The notes under the pieces were generated by a model. It was not told the DNA's origin. It searched no databases and saw only the letters and a list, made by a program, of their open reading frames with translations. Shown here piece by piece: positions 45,047 to 55,863 of a stretch of 64,000 nucleotides of DNA. The translations under genes and the position numbers were made by a program. Every line of letters begins with the position of its first letter. Position 1 is the stretch's first letter. This stretch comes from Thauera sp. 28 (lineage in GTDB: Bacteria; Pseudomonadota; Gammaproteobacteria; Burkholderiales; Rhodocyclaceae), in the NCBI RefSeq assembly GCF_000310145.2, contig NZ_AMXA01000018.1, forward strand, positions 1 to 64,000, given 5' to 3'.

Positions 45047-46009
45047 TTAGCTGGACAGACGGGACCTCATTGCCTCCGACGGCAACATACCGAAGGTGGA
45101 TCTGTAGAGTTCCGAGAATCGGCCGAGGTGGGTGAATCCATACTCGAGTGCAACTGCAGTGACGTTGGGCGCCTTGCTCGCGGGATTGGTCAGGGGCGCG
45201 TGCACATGCTCGAGCTTTTTCTGGCGGATGAACTGCTTTGGCGTCGTCTTCGCGTTCTTCTCGAACAACAGATAGAGCGAGCGCAGGCTCAGGCGGGAAA
45301 AGTGGGAGAGCTGCTCGGCGCTGATGTCCTGCTTGATGTTGTCGTTGATGTACTGCACGAGACGCTCGAAACACGGCGCATGCTGGCAGGGCTCCTCGAG
45401 CCCCAGGTTGTGTTCGAGCATGGTCATGAGCTTGGTCGTGACCACGCGGTTGTAATGCTGGAGCATCTGGGGGGTCGTCAGGGCAGACTCGGCTTCTTCG
45501 CAGATGAGCTGGAGCAGAACGATGAGGCTCTCGAGCTCCTGGAAGCGGTAAGGCACCTGCTTGAAGGTGATGCGTTCGCGCGAGCGGGTCCAGCGATGCT
45601 CTGCACAAGCGTCACCGAGCATCGTCGCGGGTAACTTGACGATGAATTTCTCACAGTCCTCGGAGTAGGTGATGTCGAGCGGGTCGTCCGGGTTTAGCAG
45701 CAGGAAATGCCCGGCCGACAGGTCAAGCGTGGTGTGGGGCAGGGTGTAGCGACAGTAGCCGCGCAGAATGAACTGGAGGTGGTAGATGTCGGCCAGCCCC
45801 TCGGAGATCACGCGCGCACGGGCGCCATAGCTCAGCCGGCACAGGTCGAGTCCACCGGCCTTGCGATGCGAAAGTGACGCGCTGCCCTGACTGCGCGAAC
45901 TCAGGCTCAGGCTATGAGACCCCACGTTCGCGCGCACGTAGTCCGACACCTCGAAAGGATTGGCACCATTGAAGATGCTGCTTTTGGCGTTCAGGAAGGC
46001 CAGGGGCAT
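45047..46009 (-). CDS. benR: AraC/XylS-family transcription activator, probable BenR
   Basis: 320 aa, the size of XylS (321 aa) and BenR. The N-terminal AraC_binding_2-type domain (SYGARARVISEGLADIYHLQFILRGYCRY...LLLNPDDPLDITYSEDCEKFIVKLP) is the ligand-sensing part. The C-terminal double helix-turn-helix runs from ERLVQYINDNIKQDISAEQLSHFSRLSLRSLYLLFEKNAKTTPKQFIRQKKLE to VTAVALEYGFTHLGRFSELYRSTFGMLPSEAMR. It lies just downstream of benD, on the same strand but behind a hairpin. TGCA-N6-GGATA sites of the XylS type stand in front of benA. Activation by benzoate is inferred. Confidence 0.85.
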   Translation of the reverse strand: MPLAFLNAKSSIFNGANPFEVSDYVRANVGSHSLSLSSRSQGSASLSHRKAGGLDLCRLSYGARARVISEGLADIYHLQFILRGYCRYTLPHTTLDLSAGHFLLLNPDDPLDITYSEDCEKFIVKLPATMLGDACAEHRWTRSRERITFKQVPYRFQELESLIVLLQLICEEAESALTTPQMLQHYNRVVTTKLMTMLEHNLGLEEPCQHAPCFERLVQYINDNIKQDISAEQLSHFSRLSLRSLYLLFEKNAKTTPKQFIRQKKLEHVHAPLTNPASKAPNVTAVALEYGFTHLGRFSELYRSTFGMLPSEAMRSRLSS

Positions 46010-46149: not shown

Positions 46150-46194
46150 TCGAGAATTTTTGGAATCTCGAGTTTATTCTCGATAAAAAATTTT
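46150..46194 (-). promoter_or_regulatory. AT-rich, repeat-containing leader of the regulator gene
   Basis: About 140 bp upstream of the regulator ATG. TCGAGAA (46150-46156) and TTCTCGA (46177-46183) form a 7-bp inverted repeat with a CTCGAG palindrome between them, all within an AT-rich block. Minus-strand TAGACA and ATAAA-type sequences could be the promoter. No TGCA-N6-GGNTA site is seen here, so autoregulation through that motif is not supported. Confidence 0.4.
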
Positions 46195-46299: not shown

Positions 46300-47076
46300 T
46301 CAGCCCTGGTCGCCACCTCCGACCGGGATGACGGTGCCGGTGATGTAGGCCGAGTCGTCGGAGGCGAGGAACAGGATCGGATCGGCCTGCTCGTCCAGCG
46401 TACCGTAGCGCTTCATCAGGCTGCTGTCGATCGACTGGCTGTAGATCTGCTTGTACCAGCGCTTCTCATCCTCGCTCTGCTTTTCCGTGTTACGCGGCAC
46501 CAGACGCGGCGGAGCCTCGGTGGCACCGGGGGCGGTCGCATTGACACGGATACCGCGCTCTGCGGTCTCGAAGGCCAGGCAGGCGGTAAGGGCATTTACG
46601 CCGCCCTTGGCCGCCCCATAGGGGACGCGGTTGACGCCGCGGGTGGCGATTGATGACACATTCACGATCGAACCCTTGCCCTTGTCCAGCATGTGGGGCA
46701 GGGCTGCGCGGCAGCACCACAGGGTGGGGAACAGCGAGCGTCGCACCTCGGCCTCGATCTGATCCTCCTGATAGTGCTCGAAGGGCTTGGTCCAGATCGT
46801 GCCGCCGACGTTGTTGATCAGGATGTCGATGCAGCCGAACTTCTCCACCGCGGCATCCATGACCCGCTTGCACTCGGAGAACTGCTCGAGGTCGGCCGTG
46901 AGGCTCAGCACCTCCACCTTCGTTGACAGTTCCTTGGCCACCTCATGCACGATCTCCGAGCGGTCGACCAGCACCAGGGTGCCCTTTTCCTTGGCCATCT
47001 TCTCGGCGACCCGCTTGCCGATGCCTTGTGCGGCACCGGTGATCACGGCCACTTTCTTCTTGAAACGGTTTGCCAT
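46300..47076 (-). CDS. benD: 1,6-dihydroxycyclohexa-2,4-diene-1-carboxylate dehydrogenase
   Basis: 258 aa short-chain dehydrogenase. NAD-binding TGAAQGIGKRVAEKMAKEKG, the NNVGG motif, catalytic Ser in IVNVSSIATRGVNRVPYGAAKGG with the YxxxK motif (YGAAK), and the C-terminal ITGTVIPVGGGDQG. It oxidises the benzoate cis-diol to catechol with loss of CO2. GGAGCGACA precedes the ATG. Last gene of benABCD. Confidence 0.93.
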   Translation of the reverse strand: MANRFKKKVAVITGAAQGIGKRVAEKMAKEKGTLVLVDRSEIVHEVAKELSTKVEVLSLTADLEQFSECKRVMDAAVEKFGCIDILINNVGGTIWTKPFEHYQEDQIEAEVRRSLFPTLWCCRAALPHMLDKGKGSIVNVSSIATRGVNRVPYGAAKGGVNALTACLAFETAERGIRVNATAPGATEAPPRLVPRNTEKQSEDEKRWYKQIYSQSIDSSLMKRYGTLDEQADPILFLASDDSAYITGTVIPVGGGDQG

Positions 47077-47103: not shown

Positions 47104-48114
47104 TCAGACGCTGGCGGCGAACTTCTCGTAGTGGAAGCTGTTCGGCTCGACCTTGCGTTCGCGCAGGTCATGGGCCACAGCCTCGACCATCGGCGGGGGG
47201 CCGCACAGGTAGATGTCGACATTGCCGTGGTCAAGGTGGGCCGGCTCGATGTGGGCGGTGACGTAGCCCTTCTTCGGCCAGCTGCTGTCATCGGCGACGA
47301 CGCATACGTCGTAGCTGAAGTTGGGCAGCGCGGCCTTGAAGGCATCCAGGCGCTCGAGCTCGACCACGTCGGCGTCGGTGTTGACGCCGTAAATGAGGTG
47401 GATCGGGTGGGCGCTGCCACCGCCGGTGACGAGCTTGTCGAGCATGGCGAGGAAGGGCGCGAGGCCGGTGCCGCCGGCGAGCATCAGCACCGGGCGTGCG
47501 ACGTCGCGCAGGTAGAAGCTGCCGATCGGGCCGGCGAGCTTGATGGTGTCGCCGGCCTTGGCGGTGCCGGTGAGGTAGCCGCTCATCAGGCCGTTGGGTA
47601 CGTTGCGGATGAGGAAGCTGACCTTGCTCTCGGCAGGCATCGAGCTAAAGGAGTAGGCGCGCGTCTGCTCGGTGCCGGGCACGGTGAGGTTGGCGTACTG
47701 GCCGGGCAGGAAAGCGAGCTTGGCGATGCCTTCACCCTGGAGCACCAGGGAGAGCGTGCTCGGCGACAGCTGGCGCACTTCGGCCACGGTGGCGGTGAGG
47801 GTAGCGTGCTTGATCTTGCACACCTCGGACGAGGCGGGCACGTTCACCACACAGTCGCTCTTGGGGTGCATCTGGCAGGTGAGGACGTAGCCGAGCCTGG
47901 CCTCTTCTTCGCTCATCGCGTCGTCGATGTAAAAGCCGAGCTCGTACTGGCCGGATTCGGCCTTGCACTTGCACGCGCCACAGGCGCCGTCACGGCAGTC
48001 GATTGGGACGTTGACGCCCTGGCGGTAAGCGGCGTCGGCCACCGTCTCGGTGGCGTTGCAGTCGATGAAGCGGGTGACGCCGTCCTCGAAGTTCAGCGCG
48101 ATCTTGAATGTCCT
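47104..48114 (-). CDS. benC: Benzoate 1,2-dioxygenase electron transfer component; expected ATG reads AGG
   Basis: 336 aa if read from the expected start. It moves electrons from NADH through FAD and a 2Fe-2S centre to BenAB. The plant-type ferredoxin domain has C40, C45, C48 (CRDGACGAC) and a later Cys in VLTCQMHP. The FAD domain includes RAYSFSSMP, and the NAD domain LAGGTGLAPFLAML. The family N-terminus TFKIALNFEDGVTRFIDCNATETVADAAYRQG is fully open from 48111. The codon where ATG is expected (48114-48112), 8 nt after GGAG, is AGG. The first standard start downstream is GTG 48042, which would remove 24 residues of the ferredoxin fold. Sequencing error, a real mutation or unusual initiation are all possible. 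Confidence 0.85.
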   Translation of the reverse strand, partial: RTFKIALNFEDGVTRFIDCNATETVADAAYRQGVNVPIDCRDGACGACKCKAESGQYELGFYIDDAMSEEEARLGYVLTCQMHPKSDCVVNVPASSEVCKIKHATLTATVAEVRQLSPSTLSLVLQGEGIAKLAFLPGQYANLTVPGTEQTRAYSFSSMPAESKVSFLIRNVPNGLMSGYLTGTAKAGDTIKLAGPIGSFYLRDVARPVLMLAGGTGLAPFLAMLDKLVTGGGSAHPIHLIYGVNTDADVVELERLDAFKAALPNFSYDVCVVADDSSWPKKGYVTAHIEPAHLDHGNVDIYLCGPPPMVEAVAHDLRERKVEPNSFHYEKFAASV

Positions 48115-48179: not shown

Positions 48180-48668
48180 TCAGACGTGGTACACGTCGAT
48201 GACGTGACGGATGTAGTCGGTCTTCAGAACGACCTTCTTGAACTTGATCACCGGGTTGGCGCCCGATACGTCGAGGGTGTAGAAGCTCGTGCCGCAGAAG
48301 TGGTCGGTGTGGTTGTAGCGCACGCTCATGGTGTGCCAGTTGAAGCGCAGCTTGACCGTGTTGCCGTCCTGCGCCAGCACCTCGATGTTGCTGATGTGGT
48401 GATTGGTGCGGGTGTCGGGGATGGTCGCGCTCGAACGCTCGGTGCGGATGCGGAATACGCGGTCTTCCAGGCCGGCACGGCGGCCGTACCAGATCAGCGA
48501 GATTTCGGACTGGGGGTCTTCGGTCAACTCGCCGTCGTCATCCCAGGCGGGCATCCAGAAGGTGCAGTTCTCGTCGTACATCGCCAGCCAGCTGTCCCAG
48601 TCGCGATCGTCCAGGTAACGGGCTTCGCGGTACAGGAAGGCACACAGGTCTTGGTAGCTCAGGCTCAT
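48180..48668 (-). CDS. benB: Benzoate 1,2-dioxygenase small (beta) subunit
   Basis: 162 aa, family length. LCAFLYREARYLDDRDWDSWLAMYDENCTFWMPAWDDDGELTEDPQSEISLIWYGRRAGLEDRVFRIRTERSSATIPDTRTNHHISNI is characteristic of BenB/XylY. Structural subunit of the alpha3beta3 oxygenase. GGAGACGAG lies before the ATG at 48668. It is 14 bp after benA and 65 bp before the benC start position. Confidence 0.95.
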   Translation of the reverse strand: MSLSYQDLCAFLYREARYLDDRDWDSWLAMYDENCTFWMPAWDDDGELTEDPQSEISLIWYGRRAGLEDRVFRIRTERSSATIPDTRTNHHISNIEVLAQDGNTVKLRFNWHTMSVRYNHTDHFCGTSFYTLDVSGANPVIKFKKVVLKTDYIRHVIDVYHV

Positions 48669-48682
48669 TTTCTCGTCTCCGC

Positions 48683-50023
48683 TCAGGCTTGTGCTTGTTC
48701 GGCCGCAAGGGCCTTCTTCATCTGCTCCAGCCAGTAAGTGTGCTGCGCCACGTACAGGCCTTCGTCCTCGGTCTTGACGCCCGAGAGGATGGGCTTGAGG
48801 CCGATCTTGTCGGCTTCCTCGTCCGGGCCTTCTACCCAGTGCTCGGCGCCGCGCGCCATGTCGTTCCACTCAAGGGCGCGGCCCATGAAGCCTTCCTGGC
48901 AGGCGCGGAATTCCTCGAGGTCGTCCGGGGTGGCCATGCCCGAGGCGTTGAAGAAGTCCTCGTACTGGCGGATGCGGCGCGCACGCGCTTCGGCCGACTC
49001 GCCCTTGGGCGCGATGCAGTAGATGGTGACTTCGGTGCGATTGACGTCGAGCGGGCGGAACACGCGGATCTGCGAGCTGAACTGGTCCATCAGGTACACG
49101 TTCGGGTACAGGCACAGGTTGCGCGAGTTGCCGATCATCCAGTCGGCCTTGGCCTCACCGAACTCGGCGACCAGGCGGTCGCGCTGTTCCATCAGCGGAC
49201 GGTCCTCGGGGTTGTCCCAGCGCGTCCACAGCAGCAGGTGGCCGTTCTCGAAGGAGTATGAACCGCCGCCCTTCTTGGCCCAGCCGCCGGCGCTCATCGC
49301 CTTGATGTCGTCACCGGCGTCGCGGCTTTTACGCTGCGCCTGGGTGGCGGCGTAGTTCCAGTGCGTGGCGGTGACGTGGTAGCCGTCGGCGCCGTTCTCG
49401 GCCTGCAGCTTCCAGTTGCCCTCGTACACATAGGTGGACGAGCCGCGTAGCACCTCAAGACCTTCGGGCGACTGGTCGACGATCATGTCGATGATCGCCT
49501 TCGATTCGCCGAGGAAGGCTTCCAGCGGCGGCACGTCGGCATTCAGGCTGCCGAACAGGAAGCCGCGATAGGACTCGAAGCGGGCGATCTTCTTGAGGTC
49601 GTGCGAGCCCTCACAGTTGAAGCTCTCCGGATAGCCGGTCTCGGTCGGATCCTTGATCTTGAGCAGCTTGCCCGAGTTGTTGAAGGTCCAGCCGTGGAAG
49701 GGGCAGGTGTAGGTGGCCTTGTTGCCGTGCTTGAAGCGCGCGAGTGTGGCGCCGCGGTGGGCGCAGGCGTTGATGAAGCAGTTGAGCTGGTTGTCCTTGT
49801 TGCGGGTGATGAACACCGGCTGGCGGCCAATCTTCGTCGTGTAGTAATCGTTGATCTTCGGCAGTTGGCTCTCGTGTGCGAGATAGACCCAGTTGCCTTC
49901 GAAGATGTGCTTCATCTCCAGCTCGAACAGTTCGCGGCTGGTGAACATTTCACGCTTGCAGCGGAACAGGCCTTGGGCCTTGTCCTTCTGGATCAGTGCG
50001 TCCAGGTATTCCATTGTGATCAT
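48683..50023 (-). CDS. benA: Benzoate 1,2-dioxygenase large (alpha) subunit
   Basis: 446 aa Rieske non-heme iron oxygenase. Rieske ligands C87/H89 (CAHRG) and C107/H110 (CPFHGW); mononuclear iron ligands H216 and H221 with bridging D213 in [16 protein letters not shown]. The sequence is of the BenA/XylX type. It adds O2 to benzoate to give the 1,2-cis-diol. Start at 50023 with GGAG upstream; an in-frame ATG at codon 4 is possible. Its promoter region carries XylS/BenR-type sites. Confidence 0.96.
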
Positions 50024-50086
50024 CGCCGAGGTCTCCGATGGTGTTAGTACGGAGTCCGCATCGTAGGTAGGGCGGCGGCGGCGAAA

Positions 50087-50101
50087 TATCCAGTTTCTGC
50101 A
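50087..50101 (-). promoter_or_regulatory. BenR/XylS half-site S1 (outer, benA side)
   Basis: On the minus strand TGCA-GAAACT-GGATA, an exact match to the XylS consensus TGCA-N6-GGNTA. Its GGATA end overlaps the candidate benA -35 by 2 bp. Confidence 0.82.
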
Positions 50102-50108
50102 CGATCGC

Positions 50109-50123
50109 TATCCACTCCTTGCA
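50109..50123 (-). promoter_or_regulatory. BenR/XylS half-site S2 (inner, benA side)
   Basis: On the minus strand TGCA-AGGAGT-GGATA. It lies 22 bp upstream of S1 in the same orientation, close to the 21-bp step of the paired sites in the Pm promoter. Confidence 0.8.
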
Positions 50124-50135
50124 TACGCCGTTGCG

Positions 50136-50150
50136 TGCACAAAGCGGATA
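50136..50150 (+). promoter_or_regulatory. BenR/XylS half-site S3 (inner, dioxygenase side)
   Basis: TGCA-CAAAGC-GGATA on the plus strand. It is the exact positional mirror of S2, but with a different N6. Confidence 0.8.
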
Positions 50151-50157
50151 AGCATCG

Positions 50158-50172
50158 TGCAGAAACTGGATA
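50158..50172 (+). promoter_or_regulatory. BenR/XylS half-site S4 (outer, dioxygenase side)
   Basis: TGCA-GAAACT-GGATA on the plus strand, 22 bp after S3 and identical to S1 read in mirror. Its last two bases overlap the candidate -35 of the dioxygenase operon. Confidence 0.82.
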
Positions 50173-50333
50173 TTGCCGTTCCCCGGCACCGCCTAATCTG
50201 CGCTCCACACGAAGCCCGGGCGCCATCGCAAAGCGTTTGCCGGCCAGGACCCGGTGCTGCGTGAATGGCGAGGCCGTCGCGGTGCCCGAGCACGCGGAAG
50301 GCCTCCCGCCCCCTGACCACAAGGAGAGAGGAA

Positions 50334-51263
50334 ATGGCGACAAGTGGTGTGATGCGTCCCGGACATATCCAGCTGCGTGTGCTGGACCTGGATGAGAGTG
50401 TCAATTTTTACCGGAACGTGCTCGGACTGGTCGAGACGGGCCGTGACGCCGCTGGCCGCGTCTACTTCAAGGCCTGGGACGAGCGTGATCACAACAGCGT
50501 GGTCCTGCGCGAAGCCGAGCAGGCAGGCATGGACCTGATGGGTTTCAAGGTCAAGGACAGGGCCACCCTCGAACAACTCGACAAGGATCTCCAGGCCTAC
50601 GGCGTGCAGACCGAGCGCATCCCGGCTGGCGAACTGCTGGAGACTGGCGAGCGCGTGCGTTTCACCATTCCGACGGGTCACGTCATGGAGCTTTACGCCG
50701 ACAAGACCGACGTGGGCAACGGCCAGCCCTACACCAACCCTGATCCGTGGATTCCGGCCGCAGAGCACGGCATCGCGCCGCATCGCTTCGATCACTGCCT
50801 GCTTTACGGTCCGAACCTGGAGGACAACCTCAAGCTGTTCACCGAGGTACTGGGCTTCCACCTCGTCGAGCGCGTGCTGCTCGAGGACGGCAAGTCGCTG
50901 CTGGCGACCTTCATTTCCTGTTCGCACAAGGCGCACGACCTCGCTTTCGTCGCCCACCCGGAGCCAGGCAAGCTACACCACCTGTCCTTCCTGCTTGACA
51001 GCTGGGAGCAGGTGCTGCGTGCGGCCGACATCATGTCGATGAACCGTGTATCGATCGATATTGGCCCGACCCGCCACGGCATCACCCGTGGTACCACGAT
51101 CTACGCCTTCGACCCCTCCGGCAACCGTTTCGAGACCTTCTGCGGCGGCTACGAGACCTACCCTGACCATGCCCCGATCACCTGGACCTTCGACGAGGTC
51201 GGCGCGGGCATCTTCTATCACGACCGCAAGCTCAACGAGCGCTTCCTCACCGTCGTGACCTGA
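50334..51263 (+). CDS. xylE: Catechol 2,3-dioxygenase (XylE/DmpB type)
   Basis: 309 aa extradiol dioxygenase of the two-domain vicinal oxygen chelate family. It opens catechol to 2-hydroxymuconic semialdehyde. GVMRPGHIQLRVLDL and the C-terminal FYHDRKLNERFLTVVT closely match XylE (307 aa). Fe(II) ligands by family alignment are H154, H216 and E267; second-sphere H201, H248 and Y257 are also present. AAGGAGAGAGG stands before the ATG. It is divergent from benA and first in an operon with the importer genes. The rest of the meta pathway is not in the window. Confidence 0.94.
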   Translation: MATSGVMRPGHIQLRVLDLDESVNFYRNVLGLVETGRDAAGRVYFKAWDERDHNSVVLREAEQAGMDLMGFKVKDRATLEQLDKDLQAYGVQTERIPAGELLETGERVRFTIPTGHVMELYADKTDVGNGQPYTNPDPWIPAAEHGIAPHRFDHCLLYGPNLEDNLKLFTEVLGFHLVERVLLEDGKSLLATFISCSHKAHDLAFVAHPEPGKLHHLSFLLDSWEQVLRAADIMSMNRVSIDIGPTRHGITRGTTIYAFDPSGNRFETFCGGYETYPDHAPITWTFDEVGAGIFYHDRKLNERFLTVVT

Positions 51264-51303: not shown

Positions 51304-52473
51304 ATGGACAAGCACTATAAAATCGTTTGCAACCTGATCCTTGGTGCCGCGCTCGTGACGACCGGCATGGGGTCGGCGCTGGCGCAGGACAAGGTCAAGG
51401 TCGGCCTGATGCTGCCCTACACCGGCACCTTCGCGGCACTCGGCAACAACATCACCAACGGCTTCAAGCAGTACGTCGAGGAGAACGGTGGCAAGCTCGC
51501 CGGCCGCGAGGTGCAGTACGTTGTTGTGGACGACGAATCCAACCCGGCGCGTGCCACCGAGATCGCCCGTCGCCTGGTAACCCGCGACAAGGTCGACGTG
51601 CTGATCGGTTCGGTGCACTCGGGCGTGGCGCTTGCCGCCGCGCGCGTCGCCGCCAACACCAAGACGCTGATGATCGTGCCCAACGCCGGCGCCAACGAGA
51701 TCACGGGTGCGCAGTGCTCGCCCTACGTGTTCCGTTCCTCCTTTTCGGCCTGGCAGCCGTCCTACGCAATGGGTGAGGCGCTCGCCAAGCGCGGCGTCAA
51801 GAACGTCGTCACCCTGGCATGGAAGTACTCCTTCGGCACCGAGTCGGTCGAAGGCTTCACCGAGGGCTTCACCAAGGGTGGCGGCAAGATCGTCAAGGAC
51901 ATGAGCCTGCCCTTCCCGAACGTGGAGTTCCAGCCCTTCCTCACCGAGATCGCCGCGCTCAAGCCCGACGCCGTGTTTGTCTTCTTCGCCGGCGCTGGCG
52001 CCGCCAAGTTCGTGAGCGATTACGCTGCAGCAGGCCTCAAGGGCAGCATCCCGCTTTATGGCCCGGGCTTTCTGAGCGAGGATGTTGCGGCCATGGGGGG
52101 CGCCGGCGAGGGGCTGCAGACCACGCTGCACTACGCCGACGGCCTCAATACTGAGCGTGACAACGCCTTCCGTACCGCTTACGCCGCTGCCTACAAGGCG
52201 CAGCCGGACGTCTACGCGGTGCAGGGCTACGATGCGGCGCAGATGTACCACGCCGGTCTCAAGGCCGCCAATGGCGACCCTGGCAAGCTCGACGCCGTGA
52301 TCGACGGCATCCGCGCAGCCACCATCGACAGCCCGCGCGGCAGCTTCACCCTGTCCAAGGCCCACAACCCGGTGCAGGACATCTACCTGCGCGAGGTCAA
52401 GGACGGCAAGAACGCCGTCGTCGAGGTCGTCTCCGCCGGGCTCGAGGATCCTGCCCGCGGCTGCAGCATGTAA
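51304..52473 (+). CDS. ABC transporter substrate-binding protein (branched-chain amino acid type), probable aromatic acid uptake
   Basis: 389 aa periplasmic binding protein with signal peptide (CNLILGAALVTTGMGSALAQ) and the Peripla_BP_6 fold (KVGLMLPYTGTFAALGNNITNGFKQYVEENGGKLAGREVQYVVVDDESNP). This family includes benzoate- and hydroxybenzoate-binding proteins. Being 40 bp after the catechol dioxygenase and sharing its operator region, benzoate or a related aromatic acid is the likely ligand. Ligand identity is inferred from context only. Confidence 0.87.
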   Translation: MDKHYKIVCNLILGAALVTTGMGSALAQDKVKVGLMLPYTGTFAALGNNITNGFKQYVEENGGKLAGREVQYVVVDDESNPARATEIARRLVTRDKVDVLIGSVHSGVALAAARVAANTKTLMIVPNAGANEITGAQCSPYVFRSSFSAWQPSYAMGEALAKRGVKNVVTLAWKYSFGTESVEGFTEGFTKGGGKIVKDMSLPFPNVEFQPFLTEIAALKPDAVFVFFAGAGAAKFVSDYAAAGLKGSIPLYGPGFLSEDVAAMGGAGEGLQTTLHYADGLNTERDNAFRTAYAAAYKAQPDVYAVQGYDAAQMYHAGLKAANGDPGKLDAVIDGIRAATIDSPRGSFTLSKAHNPVQDIYLREVKDGKNAVVEVVSAGLEDPARGCSM

Positions 52474-52511
52474 GCGTCCCGCTTCCCTTCCCAACTCAAC
52501 GCATACGTCGT

Positions 52512-52535
52512 CCCGGCAGGCTTGCGCCTGCCGGG
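52512..52535 (+). other. Intercistronic hairpin between binding protein and permease genes
   Basis: CCCGGCAGGC-TTGC-GCCTGCCGGG is a perfect 10-bp stem directly before the permease Shine-Dalgarno (GGGGGA). No T-run follows. Such stems usually stabilise the upstream binding-protein mRNA so that it is made in excess over the membrane parts. Confidence 0.75.
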
Positions 52536-52547
52536 CGGGGGATAGTC

Positions 52548-53414
52548 ATGGATTTCGCGAGCTTCCTGATCCAGGTGCTGAACTCGCTGCAGTACGGCTT
52601 GCTGCTTTTTCTGGTGGCGAGCGGGCTGACGCTGGTGTTCGGCATCATGGGCATCATCAACCTGGCGCACGGCAGTTTCTACATGATCGGCGCCTACCTG
52701 GCCTTCGTGCTTACGAGCGCGACCGGCAGCCTGGTGCTGGCTATTGCGCTTGGCATTCCGCTGGCACTGATTTTCGGTGCTCTCCTGGAGTGGGCGCTGT
52801 TTTCCCACCTCTACAAGCGTGACCACCTCGAGCAGGTGCTGCTCACCTACGGCCTCATCCTGATCTTCGAGCAGCTGCGCAGCCTGCTGGTGGGCGATGA
52901 CGTGCACGGCGTGGCCATCCCGGCCTTCCTCGACGCGTCTATCCAGCTCACCGAGGTGATGAGCTATCCGGTGTATCGCCTGGCCATCTCGGTCGTCTGC
53001 ATCGTGCTCGCGGTGGCGCTCTACTACGTCATTCAGCGTACCCGCCTGGGCATGATGATCCGCGCCGGCAATGACGACCGCAGCATGGTCGAGGCGCTGG
53101 GCATAAACATCAACATGATCTATCGCGTGGTGTTCGCGCTCGGGGTGGCCCTGGCTGCGCTCGCCGGCATGCTCGCCGCACCGATCTCCTCGGTGTTCCC
53201 GAACATGGGCAGCCATGTGCTGATCATCTCCTTCGTCATCGTCGTCATCGGCGGCATCGGTTCGGTGTGGGGCGCGCTGGTTGCTGCGCTGATCGTCGGC
53301 TTCGCTGACACCTTCGGCAAGGTTCTGCTGCCCGAGATCTCCGGAATGATCGTGTACCTGGTCATGGCCGTGGTCCTGCTGTGGCGCCCCGAAGGCATCC
53401 TGAAGAAGGGCTGA
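52548..53414 (+). CDS. ABC transporter permease, LivH type
   Basis: 288 aa with about eight membrane spans. FLIQVLNSLQYGLLLFLVASGLTLVFGIMGIINLAHGSFYMIGAY is the LivH hallmark, followed by the EAA-like loop RTRLGMMIRAGNDDRSMVEALGININ. Ends YLVMAVVLLWRPEGILKKG. Pairs with the LivM-type permease 4 bp downstream. Confidence 0.93.
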   Translation: MDFASFLIQVLNSLQYGLLLFLVASGLTLVFGIMGIINLAHGSFYMIGAYLAFVLTSATGSLVLAIALGIPLALIFGALLEWALFSHLYKRDHLEQVLLTYGLILIFEQLRSLLVGDDVHGVAIPAFLDASIQLTEVMSYPVYRLAISVVCIVLAVALYYVIQRTRLGMMIRAGNDDRSMVEALGININMIYRVVFALGVALAALAGMLAAPISSVFPNMGSHVLIISFVIVVIGGIGSVWGALVAALIVGFADTFGKVLLPEISGMIVYLVMAVVLLWRPEGILKKG

Positions 53415-53418
53415 GATC

Positions 53419-54384
53419 ATGAACGTCAATGCTTCCCTCATCGTCAAGCTCATCGCGGTCGCCGCGATTGCCTGTGTGCCCATCTCGGGCGAGTCCTTCT
53501 ACGTCGAACTGGTGGCGAAGATGCTGCTCATGGCGATCTTCGCCATGAGCCTGGACCTGCTGGTGGGCTTCACCGGCCTGGTGAGCTTCGGCCATGCGGC
53601 CTACTTCGGCATCGCCGCCTACTCGGTGGCCCTGTTTACCGCCAAGTTCGGTCAGATGAGCCTGTGGGTGATGCTGCCCGCGGCCATCCTGCTGTCGGCT
53701 GCAGCTGCGCTCGTGATCGGCATCTTCGTGATCCGTACCAAGGGCATCTATTTCATCATGGTCACGCTCGCCTTCGCCCAGATGGCGTACTTCGTGTTCC
53801 ATGACACGCCCCTGGGCGGTGGCTCGGACGGCGTCTATGTGGACGCACGGCCGACCGCGGCGATCGGCAGCTGGGTCCCCTTCGACCTGGATAACGAGCT
53901 GCACATGTTCTATTTCGTGCTCGTCATGATGCTGCTGGTGTACCTGTTTCTTCATCGCGTGCTGCAGTCGCCCTTCGGTCGCGTGCTCATGGGCATCAAG
54001 AGCAACGAGCACCGCATGCAGTCGCTGGGTTACTTCACCTTCGGCTACAAGCTGGCCGCATTCACCCTGGCGGGCGCGCTGGGCGGGGTCGCCGGCTTCC
54101 TCTACGCGGTCCTGTTCGGCTTCGTCACCCCCGAACTGCTGTCGTGGCACGAGTCGGGCAACGTACTGCTGATGGTGATCCTGGGCGGCATGGGCAACCT
54201 TGCGGGTGCGGTACTGGGCGCCTTCGCCTTCGAGGCCATGCGCGAGTTCTTTGCCGATATCACCAAATACTGGCAGCTGCTGATGGGGGGCGTCATCGTG
54301 GCCCTGGTGCTCTTTCTGCCGGGTGGGCTGACCGCAATTCCGGGCCGCATCAAGCGCGCCCTGCAGGGAGGTGGCGCAAAATGA
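53419..54384 (+). CDS. ABC transporter permease, LivM type
   Basis: 321 aa, about nine to ten spans. LLMAIFAMSLDLLVGFTGLVSFGHAAYFGIAAYSVAL and the loop SPFGRVLMGIKSNEHRMQSLGYFTFGYKLAAFTLAGALGGVAGFLYA are typical of LivM. Its stop overlaps the start of the first ATPase gene by ATGA. Confidence 0.93.
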   Translation: MNVNASLIVKLIAVAAIACVPISGESFYVELVAKMLLMAIFAMSLDLLVGFTGLVSFGHAAYFGIAAYSVALFTAKFGQMSLWVMLPAAILLSAAAALVIGIFVIRTKGIYFIMVTLAFAQMAYFVFHDTPLGGGSDGVYVDARPTAAIGSWVPFDLDNELHMFYFVLVMMLLVYLFLHRVLQSPFGRVLMGIKSNEHRMQSLGYFTFGYKLAAFTLAGALGGVAGFLYAVLFGFVTPELLSWHESGNVLLMVILGGMGNLAGAVLGAFAFEAMREFFADITKYWQLLMGGVIVALVLFLPGGLTAIPGRIKRALQGGGAK

Positions 54385-55157
54385 GCCAGACCAGCAAGAA
54401 CGAAGTGTTGCTCGAGGCGCGCAAGCTCACGCGTCGCTTCGGCGGCCTGGTGGCCAACCAGGATATCGACGTCACCCTCGAGCGCGGCATGATCCACGTG
54501 CTGCTCGGCCCCAACGGGGCAGGCAAGTCGACCTGCATCAACATGCTGTCGGGCGACCTGCCGCCCTCCGAAGGCGAGATCCGCTACCTGGGCAAGGACA
54601 TCACCCGGCTCAGCGCGGCGCAGCGCTCGCAGGAAGGCATCGGGCGCAGCTACCAGCGCACCAATATCTTCCCTCAGTTCACCGTGCTTGAAAACGTGCG
54701 CCTTGCCGCGCAGTCGCGCCGCCAGCAGCCGTGGCGCATCTTCAGCAAGGCCATGGAGCAGCAGTGGGCGCTGGAGAAGGCGCGCGCCTGCATCGAGGAG
54801 GCCGGCCTCGGCAGGCGCGTAGACTGGTTGTCGGGCGTGCTCAGCCACGGCGAACAGCGCCAGCTCGAGATCGCCATGGTGCTCGCCACCGACGCCCAGG
54901 TGCTGCTGCTCGACGAGCCGCTCGCCGGCATGGGCTCGGAAGAGTCCGCGAGCATGGTCGCGGTGCTCAAGCGCCTGCCCCAGACGCGCGGCATCCTGCT
55001 CGTCGAGCACGACATGGACGCCGTGTTCGCAGTCGCCGACAGGATCACGGTGATGGTCAATGGTCAGTTGCTGGAGTGCGGTCCGCCCGCACAGATCAAG
55101 GCCAGCGTGGCCGTCCAGCAGGCCTATCTGGGTACGGAGGACAGCTTCCATGTCTAA
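54381..55157 (+). CDS. ABC transporter ATP-binding protein, LivG type
   Basis: 258 aa. Walker A GPNGAGKST, Q-loop near GIGRSYQRTNIF, signature LSHGEQRQLEIAM, Walker B VLLLDEPLAGMG, H-loop VEHDMDAVF. The signature has His for the usual Gly (LSHGE), as is common in LivG. Overlaps the LivM gene by 4 bp and the LivF gene by 8 bp. Confidence 0.94.
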   Translation: MSQTSKNEVLLEARKLTRRFGGLVANQDIDVTLERGMIHVLLGPNGAGKSTCINMLSGDLPPSEGEIRYLGKDITRLSAAQRSQEGIGRSYQRTNIFPQFTVLENVRLAAQSRRQQPWRIFSKAMEQQWALEKARACIEEAGLGRRVDWLSGVLSHGEQRQLEIAMVLATDAQVLLLDEPLAGMGSEESASMVAVLKRLPQTRGILLVEHDMDAVFAVADRITVMVNGQLLECGPPAQIKASVAVQQAYLGTEDSFHV

Positions 55158-55863
55158 CATGCTGCTCGAAGCCAAGGAAGTTCATACCTATTACGGTGCC
55201 AGCCACATCCTGCACGGCATCGACTTCAGTATCCGCGAAGGCGAGGGCATCGCGCTCATGGGTCGCAACGGCATGGGCAAGTCGACGCTGATCAAGAGCA
55301 TGCTCGGCATCGTCAGGCCCAGGCATGGCCGGGTGCTGGTGCGTGGTGACGACTACAGCCGCGCGCGCACCTTCCAGACTGCGCAGCAGGGCATCGCCTA
55401 CGTGCCCGAAGGCCGTGGCATCTTCAAGAGCCTGACCGTGCGCGAGAACCTGCTGATGTCGGCGCGTGCCGGCATCGACGGTCGCCGCGAATGGACCTTC
55501 GAGCGCGTCATGGAGACCTTCCCGCGCCTGGGTGAGCGCATCAACAACGGTGGCTGGCAACTGTCGGGGGGCGAGCAGCAGATGCTCACCATCGGCCGCG
55601 CGCTGATGACCAACCCCGACCTGCTTATCCTCGACGAGGCCACCGAGGGCCTGGCGCCGCTGATCGCCATGGAGATCTGGCGCATCGTCAAGGAGATCCG
55701 CAGGACCGGGATCGCCACCGTGATCGTGGACAAGAACCACGGCGCAGTCACCAGCATCTGCGACCGCGCGATGATCCTGGTGAAGGGGCAGGTGGTGTTC
55801 GACGGCACCAGCGACGAGATCCGCGCCCAGCCCGAACTGATCCAGAAGCACCTCGGCGTCTGA
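55150..55863 (+). CDS. ABC transporter ATP-binding protein, LivF type
   Basis: 237 aa. Walker A GRNGMGKST, signature LSGGEQQMLTIGRALM, Walker B LLILDEATEGLAPL, H-loop region VDKNHGAVTSICDRAMIL. Completes the five-part importer. It starts inside the end of the LivG gene. Confidence 0.94.
   Translation: MSNMLLEAKEVHTYYGASHILHGIDFSIREGEGIALMGRNGMGKSTLIKSMLGIVRPRHGRVLVRGDDYSRARTFQTAQQGIAYVPEGRGIFKSLTVRENLLMSARAGIDGRREWTFERVMETFPRLGERINNGGWQLSGGEQQMLTIGRALMTNPDLLILDEATEGLAPLIAMEIWRIVKEIRRTGIATVIVDKNHGAVTSICDRAMILVKGQVVFDGTSDEIRAQPELIQKHLGV

Follow-up and report, generated by a model that had tools for sequence, protein, structure and literature searches.

Four BenR/XylS-type boxes in mirror arrangement form a probable two-way promoter between benABCD and a catechol 2,3-dioxygenase/importer operon in Thauera sp. 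28

Introduction

Is the short region between benA and a divergently oriented catechol 2,3-dioxygenase (C23O) gene in Thauera sp. 28 a two-way promoter under a single activator and, if so, would its two halves work independently or as one unit? For Thauera sp. MZ1T and Dechloromonas aromatica RCB, Suvorova and Gelfand (2019) predicted that BenR regulates benABCD along with a divergent operon for a 2-ketoacid oxidoreductase, aphBCEH, and a benzoate importer (PMC6449761). As a concept, the BenR divergon was thus already predicted in that 2019 report, to which the stretch analyzed here—64,000 nt of contig NZ_AMXA01000018.1, hereafter the window—adds another member. An earlier reading of the window (the original prediction) had placed between the two operons a mirror-symmetric set of operator sites that would serve both. 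We examined this set, which we call the hub, letter by letter and across genomes.

Results

The hub lies between benABCD and a divergent operon with a benzoate-type ABC importer. On the minus strand, benA (48683–50023), the first gene of benABCD, encodes the large subunit of benzoate 1,2-dioxygenase (TIGR03229, 898 bits against a cut-off of 781) and is followed by benB (48180–48665; TIGR03232 above cut-off, scored on a longer frame), benC (47104–48042 when counted from the first start in the list, with an open frame that reaches further upstream; NF040810 above cut-off), and benD (46300–47076; NF040811 above cut-off). The ATG of benC in a relative (L071, the one relative compared) reads AGG in the window (48112–48114, minus strand) in an otherwise continuous frame, so either the start codon is atypical or the sequence has changed. 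Next on the same strand comes benR (45047–46009), so that an AraC/XylS-family activator 47–48% identical to XylS of pWW0 is encoded nearby. On the plus strand, C23O (50334–51263; TIGR03211, 462 bits against a cut-off of 320) heads an operon that continues with a five-gene branched-chain-type ABC importer (binding protein, two permeases, and two ATPases; 51304–55863; no specific NCBIfam cut-off reached) and two hemerythrin-like genes. We call it a putative benzoate importer, a role that has been predicted for relatives (PMC6449761). The meta-cleavage part of what was earlier described as a “meta-cleavage/importer operon” comes down to C23O, no other meta-pathway gene being recognized in the divergent operon. 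A hydroxymuconic semialdehyde dehydrogenase scores above cut-off on another contig of the same genome, C30, and this contig also carries a 71% identical match to the 2-ketoacid ferredoxin oxidoreductase that is missing beside the window's hub.

Four exact TGCA-N6-GGATA boxes, two per strand, span 50087–50172. On the benA side (minus strand), the outer, promoter-proximal box is at 50087–50101 (TGCAGAAACTGGATA) and the inner, distal box at 50109–50123 (TGCAAGGAGTGGATA); after a central spacer of 12 nt (50124–50135), the inner box of the dioxygenase side (plus strand) is at 50136–50150 (TGCACAAAGCGGATA) and its outer box at 50158–50172 (TGCAGAAACTGGATA). The steps are 22 and 22 bp and the mirror centre is 50129.5, exactly as originally described, except that the motif specifies nine bases rather than eight, the lower count applying only if it is written GGNTA. 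The mirror holds for the positions of the boxes and less so for the full sequence: over 67 nt, the arms show 70% complementarity. The base composition of the window predicts 0.23 exact single boxes on its two strands and, when the geometry is fixed as here, ~7e-19 quartets. Allowing one mismatch gives 15 box matches in the window, whereas 100 shuffles average 7.6. Throughout the 4.31-Mb genome (117 contigs), an exact pair at step 22 occurs only in the hub, once per strand. With up to three mismatches, there are 15 pair places against one for a reversed control pattern; the third best has two mismatches, and no pair with fewer than two was found outside the hub. Because the chance expectation is tiny and the genome-wide search finds exact pairs only at the hub, the quartet is a real unit that is unique in this genome; the shuffles, the pair search, and the composition expectation together reject chance similarity as its origin, as the original prediction had maintained.

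Both arms are laid out like the XylS-dependent Pm promoter of TOL plasmid pWW0. The outer box of the benA side overlaps by 2 bp the minus-35 position of benA (TATTTC, 50083–50088, minus strand), a placement that matches Pm (PMC4225500), and the outer box of the other side likewise overlaps by 2 bp the minus-35 position of the dioxygenase promoter (TATTGC, 50171–50176, plus strand). The candidate minus-10 hexamers, TACGAT for benA (50060–50065, minus strand) and TAATCT for the dioxygenase operon (50194–50199, plus strand), are those named previously, and each lies 21 nt beyond its outer box. The minus-35 elements proposed earlier hold by position but not by sequence, both hexamers agreeing with TTGACA at 1/6 positions; the minus-10 hexamers are also poor by consensus. 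A sigma-70 scan of the hub detected no promoter, which, together with the weak minus-35 hexamers, gives the region the apparent look of an activator-dependent promoter. Read from the sequence, the boxes of Pm (TGCAAGAAGCGGATA and TGCAAAAAATGGCTA) stand at step 21 and are followed after 21 nt by TAGGCT, which we take to be the minus-10 of Pm. Measured against Pm, the window thus has a direct pair of TGCA-N6-GGNTA boxes, exact on both sides, a 2-bp minus-35 overlap, and a minus-10 at 21 nt, with a step of 22 instead of 21 bp. Because the step differs among BenR/XylS promoters, we do not treat it as a defining feature.

We next consider how the hub fares across genomes. A collection of genome contigs was scanned for a single GGATA box combined with two GGNTA boxes on the opposite strand, allowing steps of 21 or 22 and gaps of 0–30; this returned 21 stretches, 18 of them with benA beside the hub. 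These 18, the window, L070 and L071 (same pattern), and L075 (reached via BenA) make up 22 aligned loci spanning Thauera, Azoarcus, Zoogloea, Dechloromonas, Comamonas, and others. As 20 of the 22 (all except the window's and that of genome G287) came from the three-box pattern, the search itself accounts for part of the box conservation; it set no condition on the fourth box, the spacers, the minus-10s, which of the steps 21 and 22 applies, or the gap between 0 and 30. The alignment bears out the 22-bp step, found on both arms in 22/22 loci, and the conservation of the boxes, which are 79–85% identical (mean pairwise identity 0.79–0.85); the corresponding values are 0.42–0.45 in the 7-nt spacers and, over 171 equal-length pairs, 0.32 in the centre. 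All nine specified bases of the benA-side outer box are intact in 22/22 loci, a set partly chosen by such boxes. Every outer box, on both sides of all 22 loci, is directly followed by TT, and the benA minus-10 reads TA..AT at 21 nt in every locus. For outer boxes, the N6 letters of one hub resemble each other more than they resemble those of other hubs (95/132, permutation 0.017), and for inner boxes they do not (65/132, permutation 0.58). As the permutation ignores relatedness, we do not claim an inverted duplication of the arms.

Several loci fall outside this picture. The step is 21 bp in Pm of pWW0 (L087), in P. nitroreducens HBP1 (L088), and in L029 and L033, against 22 bp in all 22 hub loci, a lineage shift that possibly tracks BenR. 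L029 (Marinobacterium) and L033 (Oceanobacter), with step 21 and three recognized boxes each, were kept out of the alignment and are gammaproteobacterial variants: benA is present in L029, away from the hub, and in L033 the gap is 25 nt, with benA unmatched in the stretch examined. In L033 (Oceanobacter mangrovi), step-21 box pairs at 642–717 and 2941–2976 include one that precedes a frame that is RidA-like by eye, followed by benE, and another that precedes an importer binding protein 53% identical to the window's, suggesting that in a gammaproteobacterium transport genes, too, may be controlled through BenR-type boxes. One scan match, in L034 (Myxococcales), lies inside a coding frame (275–1864) and was taken as chance. 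The product of that frame presumably resembles a CRISPR Cas10-type protein. Ahead of benA on plasmid pKF715A (L089), there is one exact box (GGCTA type), and a second is absent within one mismatch.

The boxes follow the regulator. Of 297 family genomes searched, 32 have a BenA match at E ≤1e-120, and 500 bp upstream were scanned at 27 BenA places (L064, L067, L068, and places without a locus left out). Where BenA is at least 84% identical (n = 11), a four-box hub is present in nine (seven exact, one with one mismatch, and one with two); G263 has the benA-side pair only, and G144 has no boxes. No box pairs were found in the 13 places examined upstream of BenA 67–73% identical or in the three places upstream of BenA 50–52% identical, G032 in the former group having two isolated boxes, one with a mismatch. 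BenR was sought in 24 BenA genomes and in four hub genomes from the contig scan, eight genomes with only ~50% BenA matches being outside this search. It was found at E ≤4e-118 in 10 of the 11 genomes with BenA at least 84% identical, all 10 of which have boxes, and in 4/4 hub genomes from the contig scan; none was found in G144. Among the 13 genomes with BenA 67–73% identical, a BenR-like match at E ≤1e-40 exists only in G032 (29% identity). Because 10 of the 11 high-identity genomes have both and G144 has neither, the boxes are gained and lost along with BenR. The reversed control pattern occurs in 0/297 family genomes and the real pattern in 8/297. An order-wide search for BenR at E ≤1e-90 returned, among 399 genomes, only that of the window, and no new hubs. 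The 70% complementarity of the 67-nt arms could also denote a repeat with another role, such as a terminator, a hairpin, or the palindrome of a different regulator, which we consider scarcely credible: a terminator was looked for and none was found, the boxes match Pm spacing and track BenR, and the centre drifts freely.

XylS and the BenR of the window share 47% identity and have long stretches in common in the DNA-binding domain. The window BenR is 64–71% identical to 14 other hub-bearing BenRs and 57–60% identical to three more (G035, G297, and G298). It is much more divergent than its neighbors, BenA, BenC, and C23O being 88–96% identical in four same-genus relatives (L069, L070, L071, and L073).

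A second regulator, AphS, has to be weighed. It has been predicted to control benR (PMC6449761), and the benR leader in the window contains an AphS-like palindrome (46163–46176) with three mismatches to the published consensus (PMC6449761), adjoined by a sigma-70-like promoter (46199–46171, minus strand). Similar matches (one to three mismatches) lie ~120–160 bp ahead of benR in 10 of the 15 other loci where benR was placed, none being found, in a scan to two mismatches only, in L069, L070, L071, L074, and L076. These putative sites agree with the published prediction for benR. AphS has also been predicted to act at the D. aromatica divergon (PMC6449761), and regulators besides BenR may share the hub region.

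Might only the benA arm work, the other pair being a relic or auxiliary and the dioxygenase/importer operon being mainly under another regulator such as AphS? G263 could be read in this way. This natural variant (L076, 11863–12134) has one BenR pair, at benA, and none on the C23O side, with an AphS-like site between the two genes. The far outer box retains TGCA in 18/22 loci, its last base differing in L020, L028, L036, and L075 (the Zoogloea group), and L075 has a mismatch in the far inner box too. The minus-10 is also less constant on the far side than at benA, being found at 21 nt in 18/22 loci (TAATCT in 17, TAACCT in L026), while a minus-10-like hexamer lies one base further in L019, L031, and L035, and L027 reads CAAGAT. 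Nevertheless, all four boxes are exact in the window, TAATCT at 21 nt is shared by most loci, and the best AphS-like match in the window's hub (50084) has three mismatches and lies over a BenR box. We therefore regard a lone benA arm as unlikely, and favor two active arms.

Would two such arms be coupled? The central gap is 13 nt in 19/22 loci, with 11, 12, and 14 nt in one each (12 in the window), and its sequence is unconserved. Its length varies less (sd 0.5) than that of the leader behind the benA minus-10 (sd 2.0; leader start extrapolated from BLAST in four loci). This steadiness despite sequence drift makes a mild case for a spacing constraint, common descent being an alternative, and it is what would be expected if BenR dimers touched or assisted each other across the centre, as a tetramer or through a shared bend, for a sharper joint firing than separate promoters would give. 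Against such coupling, the centre-to-centre distance of the inner TGCA boxes is 16 bp in the window and 15–18 bp in relatives, so that with a helical repeat of 10.5 bp the arms are rotated by 154–257 degrees relative to each other (189 degrees in the window) and do not share one helix face; gaps other than 13 nt exist, including the window's own; shared descent alone could account for much of the constancy in length; and G263 has a benA pair only. The DNA looping or cooperative tetramer binding put forward originally is therefore unsupported; a loop requires distant sites and these are adjacent. We judge the coupled arrangement improbable. Because the boxes do not overlap, there would be room for two dimers, and the distance between the inner boxes is no less compatible with two separate dimers than with a tetramer. 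The two arms are most likely independent activation complexes at a fixed separation, not one tetramer. In a more speculative version, selection would act on the near-constant, sequence-free 13-nt centre to let a pair of BenR dimers and a pair of RNA polymerases form back to back within 86 bp and influence each other, with outputs mechanically coupled as a single two-way benzoate switch; this seems to us doubtful, if slightly less so.

The genes opposite benA are less constant than the hub. With 12 query proteins in the 22 loci, the nearest match opposite benA is C23O in eight (including the window), an indolepyruvate-ferredoxin-oxidoreductase-type gene of ~1,180 residues in 12 (L069–L073 and others), and the importer's binding protein in two, both Comamonas. 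C23O starts 341 nt (L018) and 632 nt (L027) from the hub in two of its loci, which leaves room for a small intervening gene. A 2-ketoacid ferredoxin oxidoreductase in the divergent operon is therefore a feature of 12/22 loci and not of the window and, because gene content opposite benA varies, this gene is a poor defining feature of the BenR divergon. The hub is retained while the genes on the opposite side are shuffled.

Discussion

The main finding of this study is that the hub is very probably a bidirectional XylS/BenR-dependent promoter, in which two Pm-type promoters point away from each other and each is activated by BenR with benzoate. Comparison supports what was originally proposed in this respect—BenR-type boxes, two divergent promoters, and shared regulation of benABCD, C23O, and the importer—through the Pm geometry on both sides, the 22 aligned loci, and the tracking of BenR. 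The separate published prediction that BenR controls this divergon points the same way (PMC6449761). How such a promoter might operate can be outlined from what is known of XylS, which binds as a sequential dimer and bends DNA (PMC5481539), and of Pm, in which the outer box must share two bases with the minus-35 (PMC4225500). BenR would bind benzoate or a similar aromatic acid; one effector-bound dimer would occupy each box pair, bending the DNA; and BenR would recruit RNA polymerase to promoters whose own minus-35 is too weak. The output would be benABCD in one direction, and C23O with the putative benzoate importer in the other.

The hub is of interest as a compact natural two-way promoter under one well-studied type of activator, in which a control module is retained while the genes it would control are exchanged. 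Its natural variants, with gaps of 11–14 nt, the loss of one arm in G263, and a degenerate far arm in the Zoogloea group, allow asking how two activation complexes share a small space.

How does the hub compare with known systems? The BenR divergons of strains MZ1T and RCB, compared by their published description, are like the window in that benABCD and a divergent operon with the benzoate ABC transporter and a COG3945 (hemerythrin-motif) gene are predicted to be under BenR, and benR itself under AphS (PMC6449761). The window differs in that C23O comes first and no ferredoxin oxidoreductase gene adjoins the hub. The mirrored layout, the invariant 22-bp step, the steady length of the centre, and the link between boxes and BenR presence do not figure in the passages of that report on these divergons, and relative to those passages the tidy conserved geometry is a new detail (PMC6449761). 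In Pseudomonas fluorescens MB214, Pben likewise drives benA in dependence on BenR and has two XylS-type sites immediately ahead of a putative minus-35, but its first site has TGCG, 5 bp between the sites give a step of 20, and benR precedes benABCD in the same orientation (PMC1360089). Pm of pWW0 shares with the window the 2-bp overlap between outer box and minus-35 (PMC4225500). It also shares the direct TGCA-N6-GGNTA pair and the 21 nt from outer box to minus-10, but Pm is one-directional with a step of 21, whereas the window has two mirrored copies with a step of 22. In Escherichia coli, XylR is an AraC-family regulator of xylAB and xylFGH, which have a divergent paired-site layout. It is unlike the window in being a sugar regulator with different sites and in the involvement of cAMP. 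The likeness lies in the use of one activator for both catabolic and ABC-importer genes (PMC8647362).
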